DNA from: Chromobacterium amazonense
GTDB taxonomy: Bacteria; Pseudomonadota; Gammaproteobacteria; Burkholderiales; Chromobacteriaceae
Assembly: GCF_001855565.1 (NCBI RefSeq)
Contig: NZ_MKCR01000002.1
Coordinates: 124,001 to 188,000 of the forward strand
Length of the DNA stretch: 64,000 nt
Direction of reading: 5' to 3'
The position numbers and the translations under genes are program-made. Under the pieces are notes generated by a model. That model searched no databases. It was given only the letters and a program-made list of their open reading frames with translations, and was not told the origin of the DNA. Positions 36,029 through 39,456 of the stretch are shown in pieces. Position 1 is the stretch's first letter. Each line of letters opens with the position of its first letter.

Positions 36029-37834
36029 ATGAGCCGCTTCGACTTCAGCCAGCCGCCGTTCGACACGCTCGGTCCCGCCGAGCGCGACGCGCTGGAAGCC
36101 CGCGCCGACATCGTCTACTTTCCCGACGACGCGCTGGTCATCGGCCCCGGCCAGGCCATAGACGCGCTGTACATGGTGATCAAAGGCAAGGTGTGCGAGC
36201 TGGCCGGAGAGGAAGTGGTTTCGCGCTACCATCCGCGCGACAGCTTCGACACCCGCGCGCTGATCGCCGGCCAAACGCCGCACCGCTTCGTAGTGGAGGA
36301 AGAGGCATTGCTGCTGGCGCTGCCGCGCGCCGAGCTGCTGGCCCTGACCGAAAGCCATCCGCGCTTCGGCGCCTATTTCTACGCCAGCGTCTCGCAAAAG
36401 CTGGGCATGCTGGCGCAGCGCGCCGGCACCCGCGAACTGCAAACGCTGCTGACCGCCACCGTGCGCGACGCCGGCTGCCGCCAGCCGGTATTTGTCGACG
36501 CCGCCGACAGCATCCGGGACGTAGCTGCCGCCATGAAGGCGCAGCGCAGCAAATCCGTGCTGGTGCGCGATGGCGAGCGGCTGGGCATCTTCACCACCAC
36601 GGATTTCCGCGACGTGATCCTGGACGGCGTGGACAGCGCCGAACCGATAGGCCGCCACTGCGGCTACCAATTGCTGACCATAGACATCGACGATTTCCTG
36701 TTCAACGCCCTGCTGTTGATGACGCAGCGCAATCTGCGCCGGCTGGTGGTGACGGAACACGGCCGGCCGGTCGGCATCCTGGCGCAGGTCGACGTGCTGT
36801 CCTACTTCTCCAACCACTCCCATTTGATCGCGCAACGGCTGGAGCGCGCCAGCAGCCTGGATGAGCTTGCCGATATCGCCAGCCAGATCGACCGGCTGAT
36901 CGGCATCCTGTCCGGCCACGGCGTGCGGCCGCTGCAACTTGGTCGGCTGGTGCAGGCGCTGAACGCGCGGCTGTTCGCCCGCGCCTGGCGGATGATCGCG
37001 CCGGCCGAAGTGGCGGACAACAGCTGCCTGATCGTGCTCGGCTCGGAAGGCCGCGGCGAGCAAATCCTCAAGACCGATCAGGACAACGCGCTGCTATTGC
37101 GCGACGGCGTTCCCCCTGAAAGCGCGGCGGAATATTGCGGCGCCTTCTCTGCCGCCCTCGCCCGCTTTGGCTACCCGCCCTGCCCAGGCGGCGTCATGGT
37201 CAGCCACCCCGAATGGCGATTGACCCGCGCCGCCATGCGCGACCGCATACACGGCTGGCTGGCCCAGCCTAGCGGCGAGGGCATGATGCAGCTGGCCATC
37301 TTCTGCGACGCCGAAGCGGTATGCGGCGACGCCTCCTTGCTGGCCGACTACCGCGGCTACCTGCGCGAACGCTTGCAGGACGACGCCGGCTTCTACGCCC
37401 GCTTCGCCCGCGCCATCGATCAGTTCGACACGCCGCTGGGGCCGTTCGCCCGGCTGCGCACCCGCGAACGCGATGGCCGCGACACGCTGGATTTGAAAAA
37501 AGGCGGCATTTTCCCGCTGGTGCATGGCTTGCGCGCGCTGGCGCTGGAATACGGCATCGACGAAACCGGAAGCCACGCCCGCGCGCAGGCGCTCGCCGCC
37601 GCCGGGCGGCTGGAATCCTCTTTGGCCAACGACATCGTGGAGGCGCTGGGCGTGTTGTCGCAATTGCGGCTGGACCAGGGGCTGCGGCGCATCGAGGCGG
37701 GCCAGCCTGCAGACAACTGGATCGAGCCGGAACGGCTATCGTCGCTGGAAAGAGACCTGCTGAAGGAGGCGCTGGCCGTCGTCAAGCGCTTCAAGGCGCA
37801 ACTGCGCCACCACTATCGCCTGGGCAGCCTGTAA
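36029..37834 (+). CDS. cNMP-binding/CBS/DUF294 nucleotidyltransferase-like regulator
   Basis: A four-part cytosolic protein of 601 residues. Residues 10-125 are a cyclic-nucleotide-binding fold (ALVIGPGQAIDALYMVIKGKV). Residues about 150-265 are a CBS pair (VFVDAADSIRDVAAAMKAQRSKSVLV and LLLMTQRNLRRLVVTEHGRPVGILAQVD), expected to bind adenine nucleotides. Residues about 300-440 are a DUF294 nucleotidyltransferase-like domain with IVLGSEGRGEQILKTDQDNALLL (the GSxxR and DxD-like motif). The remaining part is the DUF294 C-terminal domain. It overlaps the following exonuclease gene by TAATG, a pairing that recurs near acetate permease genes in other Proteobacteria. It probably senses nucleotide signals; the target is unknown. 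Confidence 0.92.
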   Translation: MSRFDFSQPPFDTLGPAERDALEARADIVYFPDDALVIGPGQAIDALYMVIKGKVCELAGEEVVSRYHPRDSFDTRALIAGQTPHRFVVEEEALLLALPRAELLALTESHPRFGAYFYASVSQKLGMLAQRAGTRELQTLLTATVRDAGCRQPVFVDAADSIRDVAAAMKAQRSKSVLVRDGERLGIFTTTDFRDVILDGVDSAEPIGRHCGYQLLTIDIDDFLFNALLLMTQRNLRRLVVTEHGRPVGILAQVDVLSYFSNHSHLIAQRLERASSLDELADIASQIDRLIGILSGHGVRPLQLGRLVQALNARLFARAWRMIAPAEVADNSCLIVLGSEGRGEQILKTDQDNALLLRDGVPPESAAEYCGAFSAALARFGYPPCPGGVMVSHPEWRLTRAAMRDRIHGWLAQPSGEGMMQLAIFCDAEAVCGDASLLADYRGYLRERLQDDAGFYARFARAIDQFDTPLGPFARLRTRERDGRDTLDLKKGGIFPLVHGLRALALEYGIDETGSHARAQALAAAGRLESSLANDIVEALGVLSQLRLDQGLRRIEAGQPADNWIEPERLSSLERDLLKEALAVVKRFKAQLRHHYRLGSL

Positions 37835-38442
37835 TGCTGCGCCAATGGCACCGCCGCTGGCTGCTTGCCCGGTTGCGCGATCCGGCCTGGCGCCATGTAT
37901 TCGACGAACACCCGGAGGAGCTGGTCAGCCTCGATTGCGAAACCACCAGCCTAGACGTCAAGAAGGCCGAGCTGCTGTCGATAGGCGCCGTCAAGCTGCG
38001 CGGCAACCGCATCCTCAGCAGCGAATCGCTGTACCTGCTGGTCAAACCGCAAACCCTGCCGCAAGGCGACAATATCGCCATCCACGGCTTGCGCCGGCGC
38101 GATCTGGACGAAGGCATGGAACCGGCGCAGGCCGTGCGGCAGCTGCTGGATTTCATCGGCGGCCGGCCATTGCTCGGCTACTACCTGGAATACGACGTGG
38201 CGGTGTTGAACAAATACGTGAAGCCGCTGCTCGGCATTGCCCTGCCGCAACGGCAGATCGAGGTTTCCGCCCGCTACTACGACTACAAGTTCAAGCAAAA
38301 CCCCGGCGCCTATATCGACCTCAGGCTGGCCGAGCTGTACCGCGACCTCGCCATCCCCGCCCCGCCGCGGCACGACGCGCTGAACGACGCGCTGGGCGTG
38401 GCCATGCTGTACCAGGCGCTGCGCCAGCGCGGATTCGGTTAA
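37834..38442 (+). CDS. DnaQ-family 3'-5' exonuclease
   Basis: 202 residues from ATG 37834. The DEDDh exonuclease motifs are all visible: ExoI VSLDCETTSLD (Asp, Glu), ExoII LLGYYLEYDVAVLNK (Asp), and ExoIII RHDALNDALGVAML (His, Asp). It resembles the epsilon subunit of DNA polymerase III but lacks the C-terminal tail for binding alpha, and it is not beside rnhA, so it is an auxiliary nuclease. Translation is coupled to the DUF294 protein by a one-base stop-start overlap, suggesting that the two act together. Confidence 0.93.
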   Translation: MLRQWHRRWLLARLRDPAWRHVFDEHPEELVSLDCETTSLDVKKAELLSIGAVKLRGNRILSSESLYLLVKPQTLPQGDNIAIHGLRRRDLDEGMEPAQAVRQLLDFIGGRPLLGYYLEYDVAVLNKYVKPLLGIALPQRQIEVSARYYDYKFKQNPGAYIDLRLAELYRDLAIPAPPRHDALNDALGVAMLYQALRQRGFG

Positions 38443-38556
38443 GCGCCGTTGCCGCCTTGGATCAGGTTCTGTGCGAGCTTGGGTTGCAGGCGCCAAACCC
38501 CACTCAGGCGCATGACAAAATATTTGTAAACATTTGCCTCTCCTCTTAGCTCATTT

Positions 38557-38573
38557 CTGGCACGCGCCTTGCT
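38557..38573 (+). promoter_or_regulatory. Sigma-54 promoter
   Basis: CTGGCACGCGCCTTGCT matches YTGGCACG-N4-TTGCW at every fixed position, with GG and GC ten bases apart. Transcription would start near 38584 and give a leader of about 165 bases to ATG 38750. Confidence 0.85.
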
Positions 38574-38584
38574 GACACTCATAG

Positions 38585-38670
38585 CGGCAAGCCATTGTTC
38601 CGGCAAGAAAAATCGGCAAATAGACGCTTTGATACCGGCATGGCGGCAAGCGACAGCGGCAAAGCGGCAA
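38585..38670 (+). repeat. Six CGGCAA hexamers in the leader
   Basis: CGGCAA occurs at 38585, 38601, 38614, 38644, 38657 and 38665, all on the transcribed strand and all downstream of the predicted start. Several are preceded by G or A and followed by G or A. Repeated short motifs in a leader suggest binding by a protein or small RNA, but no known factor with this motif is claimed. Confidence 0.6.
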
Positions 38671-38749
38671 AAATTGCAGCCCTGCCGCCCAGGACAGCAG
38701 CTGATCCGTGAAGCGCTGCCCGGCATCCACGTTTTCAAGGAGAGGCAAT

Positions 38750-39409
38750 ATGTCTATCAGCAGCAACACCAGCACGTACTGGCAGCAACTGCAATCGCTG
38801 CATCAGCAGCGGCGCCAGGATTTCAGCAGCCTGACGCAATCGGTTCAGCAAGGCGACATCGCCGGCGCGCAACAAGCGCTGGCCGCACTGCAGCAGCTGA
38901 ACGGTTCCAACAACACCGACAATGGCAACCAGGATTTCGGCGCGGTGCTGAACAATGCCATCAGCGCGGCATCCTCCACGTCCGCCACCGGCGCCAGCGC
39001 CACGGCAACCGACCCGTTCGCCGCGCTGAACAACAGCCAGACCAGCGGCGGCACCGGCAATTCCGTCTCCTCCTTGCTGAAAACCCTGGGCCAGGATCTG
39101 CAATCCGGCAACCTGAGCCAGGCGCAGCAGGCTTTCCAGCAACTGCAGCAAGGCCTGCAACAGGCCAACGGGGCGCAAGCCAGCGAAGGCGGCCATCGCC
39201 ACCATCATCATCACCATGACAGCGGCGGCGAGCAAAACAACGGTTTGGCCAACCTATTGAACGGCGGCAATAACAAGCAAAGCGCGGCGACGGACAGCAG
39301 CGCCAGCAGCAACGCCATCAACCAGCAAGCCCAGGCCGCGCTCAGCCTGTACCAGGCCAGCGCCGGCAACAATGACATCTCCAGCCTGCTGATGTCGCTA
39401 TCGGTGTAA
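38750..39409 (+). CDS. Gln/Ser/Asn-rich low-complexity protein with His tract
   Basis: 219 residues from ATG 38750, with an excellent AAGGAGAGG site five bases upstream. There is no signal peptide or membrane segment. It contains two related helical units (LTQSVQQGDIAGAQQALAAL near residue 26 and LGQDLQSGNLSQAQQAFQQL near 115), a Ser/Thr/Asn linker, a run of six His near residue 145, and a Gln/Ala-rich end. I recognise no family function. Expression from a consensus sigma-54 promoter and a long leader suggests tight, condition-dependent control (nitrogen, motility or envelope stress). The His tract may bind metal. A strong terminator follows. Confidence 0.8.
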   Translation: MSISSNTSTYWQQLQSLHQQRRQDFSSLTQSVQQGDIAGAQQALAALQQLNGSNNTDNGNQDFGAVLNNAISAASSTSATGASATATDPFAALNNSQTSGGTGNSVSSLLKTLGQDLQSGNLSQAQQAFQQLQQGLQQANGAQASEGGHRHHHHHHDSGGEQNNGLANLLNGGNNKQSAATDSSASSNAINQQAQAALSLYQASAGNNDISSLLMSLSV

Positions 39410-39428: not shown

Positions 39429-39456
39429 AAAGGCCTTCCACGCGGAAGGCCTTTTT
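39429..39456 (+). terminator. Terminator of the Gln-rich gene
   Basis: An 11-bp stem AAAGGCCTTCC with its complement, an ACGC loop and a T-run. It lies between convergent genes. Confidence 0.9.

Follow-up and report, generated by a model that had tools for sequence, protein, structure and literature searches.

The DNA between positions 38518 and 39454 of the analyzed window (the whole stretch of 64 000 nucleotides of the Chromobacterium amazonense genome considered here) is, judging from its sequence, a one-gene transcription unit, and it likely belongs to the flagellar regulon controlled by sigma-54 (class III), as a lone gene with a downstream enhancer. The CGGCAA hexamers repeated in its leader are best read as half-sites of a palindrome, CGGCAA-N3-TTGCCG, which is also found next to the sigma-54 promoter that drives the flagellar rod operon flgB. 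The first-pass annotation of this region had concluded that the unit could not be matched to a known system; because the palindrome is common to the unit and flgB, such a match can be made.

The unit, with all its features on the forward strand, is located between a gene for an RNase_T-type exonuclease (37834-38442) on one side and an open frame on the opposite strand on the other side, and consists of a promoter, a leader, one gene and a terminator-like hairpin, which agrees with the single-gene unit that had been proposed. The open reading frame (38750-39409) encodes a 219-aa, Cys-free, Gln/Ser/Asn-rich protein of an orphan family, with the start codon ATG at 38750, AAGGAGAGG immediately 5' of it, and a Shine-Dalgarno sequence AAGGAG at 38737-38742, the ribosome site noticed earlier, in which GGAGA is invariant in the alignment of 15 of the 17 orthologous leaders. 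A 233-aa, GTG-initiated ORF was rejected as a separate candidate: it is the same frame prolonged in the 5' direction, and the prolongation is, by eye, stopped or out of frame in three loci (L003, L006 and L010); in the leaders of the same three loci, again by eye, a translated leader peptide initiated at a GTG in the possible stem-loop described below is likewise stopped or out of frame. The strong terminator reported in the first pass stands to the extent that a hairpin of 11 pairs with a T run is present at 39429-39454, but the scan for terminator-type hairpins yields three sites in total, no more than the 3.6 obtained in shuffled sequences.

The sigma-54 (-24/-12) promoter CTGGCACGCGCCTTGCT at 38557-38573 is an exact match to the full consensus, as originally stated, and the only one within the window that fits YTGGCACG-N4-TTGC with no mismatches. 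Across the genome, TGGCACG-N4-TTGCW is found at 5 places exactly and at 36 places with one mismatch, compared with 25 for the reversed control pattern, and the promoter in question is one of the five exact matches. All 17 orthologous loci contain CTGGCA[CT]-N5-TTGC, with its first base 193-224 bases ahead of the start codon; this conservation bears out, at the sequence level, the suggested sigma-54 control, and transcription would start near 38584. Directly 5' of the promoter, at 38518-38536, the alignment reveals an AT-rich block, AATATTTGTAAACATTT, that is confined to one group of orthologs (L001-L012). The second group (L013-L017), with 44-46% protein identity to the 219-aa protein, lacks this block and differs in its upstream sequence.

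The leader carries six copies of CGGCAA on the sense strand, at 38585-38590, 38601-38606, 38614-38619, 38644-38649, 38657-38662 and 38665, the last one being part of the main palindrome. The claim of six identical sense-strand hexamers is thus correct, and the number is far from what base composition would produce: none of 4000 dinucleotide shuffles of the leader reach six copies of CGGCAA, and none of 2000 yield any hexamer six times. CGGCAA itself is not rare in this genome, with 139 copies in the window compared with 81 expected, and of the 20 triple clusters found genome-wide, four are overlapping pieces of this leader; the feature that stands out is the six-fold non-coding array. The first-pass annotation had made its case dependent on the conservation of the hexamers in orthologous leaders, and every one of the 17 leaders has between two and six sense-strand copies (6, 6, 3, 4, 4, 3, 5, 4, 5, 2, 2, 5, 3, 2, 2, 2 and 2), and in 12 of them, which we picked as representatives, the total is 44 compared with 2.5 expected. 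The same array in leaders elsewhere had been suggested as a subject of search. Of the remaining 40 sigma-54-like places in the genome, nine were read by eye, and none of these nine has such an array; one of them, C5:51367, precedes a fliK-like gene.

The abundance of CGGCAA in the genome could be taken to indicate that base composition alone accounts for the hexamers and that their position behind a sigma-54 promoter is a coincidence. This explanation is hardly credible given that, when 4000 shuffles were made of each of nine leaders out of the 17, none reached the observed count in L001, L004, L007, L009 and L012, and only 4, 9, 37 and 81 of the 4000 did so in L013, L003, L016 and L010, respectively, and that a position-specific palindrome is present in all 17 leaders. 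Counted from the first base of the promoter, this 15-bp palindrome is at +96 to +109, in 7 exact copies and 10 with a single mismatch. The copy in the present leader, CGGCAA-AAA-TTGCAG at 38665-38679, matches CGGCAA-N3-TTGCCG in 11 of 12 positions, contains the sixth hexamer and belongs with the one-mismatch copies. Across the 15 aligned leaders, GCGGCA...TTGC is kept without exception, and the palindrome is retained in both ortholog groups despite about 45% protein identity and different upstream sequences. All 17 leaders also have a half-site 21-22 bp ahead of the palindrome (14 exact and 3 with 5 of 6 bases); in the leader analyzed here, this is the fourth hexamer, located 21 bp ahead. Such spacing equals two helical turns, as one would expect for two activator dimers bound side by side. 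The second ortholog group has a further CGGCAA at +22.

The first-pass annotation read the hexamers as leader motifs, and they could indeed form an RNA element, that is, a transcript leader bound by a protein or a small RNA, or a source of a small RNA released from the 5'-UTR, as with CsrA or Hfq sponges. The hexamers are sense-biased, with six copies against none on the other strand in this leader and 0-3 antisense copies across the 17 leaders, and there are other conserved blocks in the leader. The block CAAGCCATTGTT (CAAGYCNTTGTT) at the predicted transcript start (38588-38599) consists of mostly invariant columns in the alignment of 15 of the 17 leaders and is nearly invariant in both ortholog groups; TCCGTG is invariant in these 15 leaders, in the loop of a possible stem-loop (38697-38719) 5' of the ribosome site; and single-sequence folds of several orthologs predict a second hairpin over the Shine-Dalgarno sequence. 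However, 6 of the 15 aligned rows break the stem that was placed by hand for the possible stem-loop, none of the 15 pairs predicted by RNAalifold for the leader alignment show compensatory change on both sides, and the search of Rfam with 10 of the 17 loci gives no credible match, the lone one, with an E-value of 0.43, falling far short of its gathering score and mapping within the L004 gene. Furthermore, in members of the family outside Chromobacterium (L085, L092 and L093) and at flgB, the palindrome is upstream of the promoter and hence off the transcript, which argues for a DNA site over an RNA motif. An RNA element is therefore quite unlikely; the array is real but is not best interpreted as an RNA motif, and the reading of the hexamers as activator half-sites is followed from here on.

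In these homologous genes of other genera, an exact palindrome precedes a sigma-54-like promoter: relative to the start codon, the palindrome of L092 and L093 is at -201 and the promoter at -96 and -95, respectively, and in L085, the two are at -240 and -151. Because L092 and L093 come from one genus, the independent cases outside Chromobacterium number two. Of the 15 further family loci that were read, the promoter and the palindrome occur together in these three; L087 offers a sigma-54-like site but no palindrome, and the other 11 lack both.

The palindrome recurs at flagellar genes. In all five Chromobacterium genomes searched out of the 19 (G000, G004, G010, G011 and G014), an exact copy begins 87-99 bp 5' of the sigma-54-like promoter of flgB, and in another genus, an exact copy is likewise upstream of the sigma-54-like promoter of flgB in both genomes searched (G818 and G858), where a second copy with one mismatch is present at a distance of 45 bp. 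The four FlgB proteins tested (G000, G014, G818 and G858) attain the NCBIfam equivalog cut-off, whereas flgB of G004, G010 and G011 was named by eye from likeness; in total, eight FlgB, FlgC and FliE proteins were tested and attained the respective cut-offs. Taken together, eight genomes (the above seven and G374) contain 22 exact palindromes, compared with 7 for the reversed control. Seven of these are at flgB, four at members of the family (in G014, G374, G818 and G858), one at C5:7791, three within genes that were named by eye, two of them fliK-like and one flgE-like, and seven are at no gene that we could tie to flagella.

When one mismatch is allowed, the excess in the C. amazonense genome itself is only mild, with 40 places compared with 24 for the reversed control. 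In the same genome, 3 of the 41 sigma-54-like sites have a palindrome (one mismatch at most) within 200 bp, amounting to four pairs compared with 0.16 expected, and these three are the gene at 38750, flgB and flrC-fliE, the last with two palindromes 21 bp apart. With the gene at 38750 left out, the co-occurrence has P of about 0.01. The rule is not universal among class III promoters because the sigma-54 sites of fliK and flgJ have no palindrome with one mismatch or fewer from -220 to +280. Two further places merit mention. The two one-mismatch palindromes 21 bp apart, together with the sigma-54-like site, are within the 3'-terminal part of the activator gene (L118:7128-7302, G000:C5); this is perhaps the promoter region of fliE, although the sigma-54-like site, being in coding sequence, may be there by chance. 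The palindrome at C5:7791 is located inside a 208-aa gene (L117:7685-8359, G000:C5), 106 bp 3' of a weaker sigma-54-like site, a layout that is the same as that of the gene at 38750; the 208-aa protein has no match in Pfam or NCBIfam.

A candidate activator is encoded directly 5' of fliE-fliF; it is 458 aa long and combines a receiver domain, a sigma-54 interaction domain and an HTH of the Fis type (HTH_8). Among its best 25 of 90 matches, no NCBIfam equivalog cut-off is reached, so that the designation FlrC/FleR-like is based on the domains and the neighbors. Full-length counterparts, well above the paralogs, are present in 10 of the 13 other genomes searched (78-86% in three Chromobacterium and 53-63% in G816, G865, G979, G818, G858, G323 and G374); in G759, the match (48%) is partial and is followed by a flhA-like frame, and in G939 and G1016 the matches are at the paralog level only. 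A FliE-like ORF follows the counterpart in each of the 10 genomes, and in the two of these where FliE was tested, it was confirmed. The gene preceding the activator (L118:5466-7571, G000:C5) is CheB-like, below the curated cut-off, and no FlrB/FleS kinase is found at that position. In four of the genomes with the activator (G816, G865, G979 and G323), the family member has no palindrome. Conversely, the gene of the 219-aa family is missing from G010 and G011, in which both the activator and the palindrome at flgB are present, which implies that the gene is accessory rather than a core part of the flagellum.

The palindrome might instead be bound by another sigma-54 activator, for example a FleQ/FlrA-like master regulator or a non-flagellar protein of the NtrC family. 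Related genomes hold several more sigma-54 activators (matches of about 36-50% identity), and binding downstream of the promoter is possible for other activators, FleQ among them. This alternative is nevertheless unlikely because the gene next to fliE encodes a FlrC/FleR-type activator and because the palindrome recurs at flgB which, according to a published study, needs sigma-54 together with FlrBC in Vibrio cholerae or FleSR in Pseudomonas aeruginosa (PMC7064773).

The mechanism that we favor thus involves the FlrC/FleR-like protein. The sigma-54 RNA polymerase would sit at 38557-38573, and the activator, encoded just before fliE, would bind the palindrome at 38665-38679, centered near +88, and would also take the weaker half-sites 21 bp and further 5' of it. 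All these putative activator sites are 3' of the predicted transcription start, and the activator would work there as at an enhancer. Given that the activator and the palindrome appear to be common to the gene and flgB, we infer that its expression would coincide with that of flgB, at the rod-hook stage.

A protein search finds the gene of the 219-aa protein in 17 of 61 genomes, namely in 17 of the 19 Chromobacterium and in none of the 42 outside the genus; a profile search again gives 17 of 19, and a protein search of named genomes returns nine loci, all in Chromobacterium, the nearest one in C. sinusclupearum, with 96% in the best segment. The composition is unusual, with Q, S, N, A, T and G jointly making up 65-74% of the residues across the orthologs, no Cys in 15 of the 17 (L015 and the frameshifted L012 have one each) and no hydrophobic N-terminus in the 219-aa protein. 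In genome G015, the ortholog (L012/L018) is interrupted close to the His tract, which leaves two separate frames, and is either a pseudogene or the product of a sequencing error. In the five pairs compared, third codon positions change more than the first and second, as they do in a coding gene, and changed codons outnumber silent ones (for example, 66 compared with 44 between L001 and L009), so that the gene evolves fast.

The duplicated helical units and the His tract reported in the first pass are both present, the units on a low-confidence model. Unit 1 spans residues 7-51 (38768-38902) and unit 2 spans residues 106-141 (39065-39172), and the His tract, HRHHHHHH, occupies residues 149-156 (39194-39217); a run of 6-10 His (R allowed) is found in 16 of the 17 orthologs, the frameshifted one being the exception. 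The AlphaFold2 model has helices over both units and the C-terminus, with a mean pLDDT of 44, and at this level the Foldseek result obtained with it (best E-value of 1.4) has no meaning. An internal-repeat search of the protein yields an alignment that is matched by 7 of 1000 shuffles, in a register unlike that of the family alignment; the family alignment is preferred. The 219-aa protein has no Pfam match above the cut-off and none in NCBIfam or PHROGs, and the best family E-values of its relatives (0.0012, 0.003 and 0.0005) belong to mutually inconsistent families, none of them credible. Sequence matches in the PDB (best E-value of 7e-5) were rejected because they align mostly on the His-rich stretch of the profile and were attributed to expression tags and composition.

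The short relatives display the repeat unit clearly, as illustrated by SALQSGNLSQAQSAF and QALQSGNLQAAQQAF. The wider family search employed a profile of short Chromobacterium paralogs (L080-L082) and afterwards a wider profile, and detected relatives in 9 of 379 genomes of the order (own genome included), 2 of 369 of the class and 1 of 398 of the phylum; for L099, the family link is weak (E-value of 9e-7). The proteins of this helical-repeat family, with two to about six units each and often a His tract, are scattered through Proteobacteria. One relative, L090 (G865:C18), has a 543-codon frame with, by eye, about six copies of the unit, and its His tract is central. The three short His-tract paralogs L080, L081 and L082, from three Chromobacterium genomes, share a conserved upstream region of their own (TTAACAA...GTTTGTGACT), with neither a sigma-54 site nor a palindrome, and a tblastn search of plasmids with L082 finds none.

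From its regulation, the product is probably a flagellum-associated accessory protein; that it is exported via the flagellum is a guess from the composition and the lack of a hydrophobic N-terminus. Extended to the family, with its xALQSGNLxxAQxAFxxLQ units, the idea would be that, in several genera, these proteins are produced on the schedule of the rod and hook and are either exported via the flagellum or assembled onto it, with the His tract binding metal or tuning the surface, a scenario that we put forward as tentative and rather doubtful as a whole. The puzzle of a hexamer array gives way to a rule whereby CGGCAA-N3-TTGCCG near a sigma-54 promoter would mark flagellar targets in these bacteria. 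In three genera, this rule would tie an orphan protein family to the flagellar program, and in the present genome it singles out a further candidate target, the 208-aa gene of L117 (L117:7736-8359). If the 219-aa protein is indeed a flagellar part or an export substrate, it would be an undescribed component of a very well-studied machine.

Among the titles and abstracts of the Chromobacterium literature, in the matches listed, none deals with this gene or with a FlrC/FleR protein of the genus. Harpin-like proteins and flagellar export substrates are Cys-poor and Ser/Gln/Gly-rich and have no Sec signal, and the family described here resembles them in composition, with its 65-74% of Q, S, N, A, T and G and the lack of Cys in 15 of 17 orthologs. 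No sequence relation to these proteins was found, and to our knowledge, helical repeat units with a His tract do not occur in these families. In Pseudomonas, the activator gene is next to fliE, and the same is the case for the candidate activator in Chromobacterium; in the latter, however, the gene before the activator is not a FleS/FlrB kinase gene. The resemblance to P. aeruginosa extends to the FleSR-dependent flgB operon, in which flgB is under sigma-54 (PMC7064773). The likeness to the FlrC class III promoters of V. cholerae is one of layout, and the Chromobacterium target differs in being an orphan repeat protein. According to a published review, FlrC sites are typically downstream of the transcription start and are true enhancers (PMC6504787), and both systems appear to combine a sigma-54 promoter, downstream sites of the enhancer type and a response-regulator activator of the flagellar kind.
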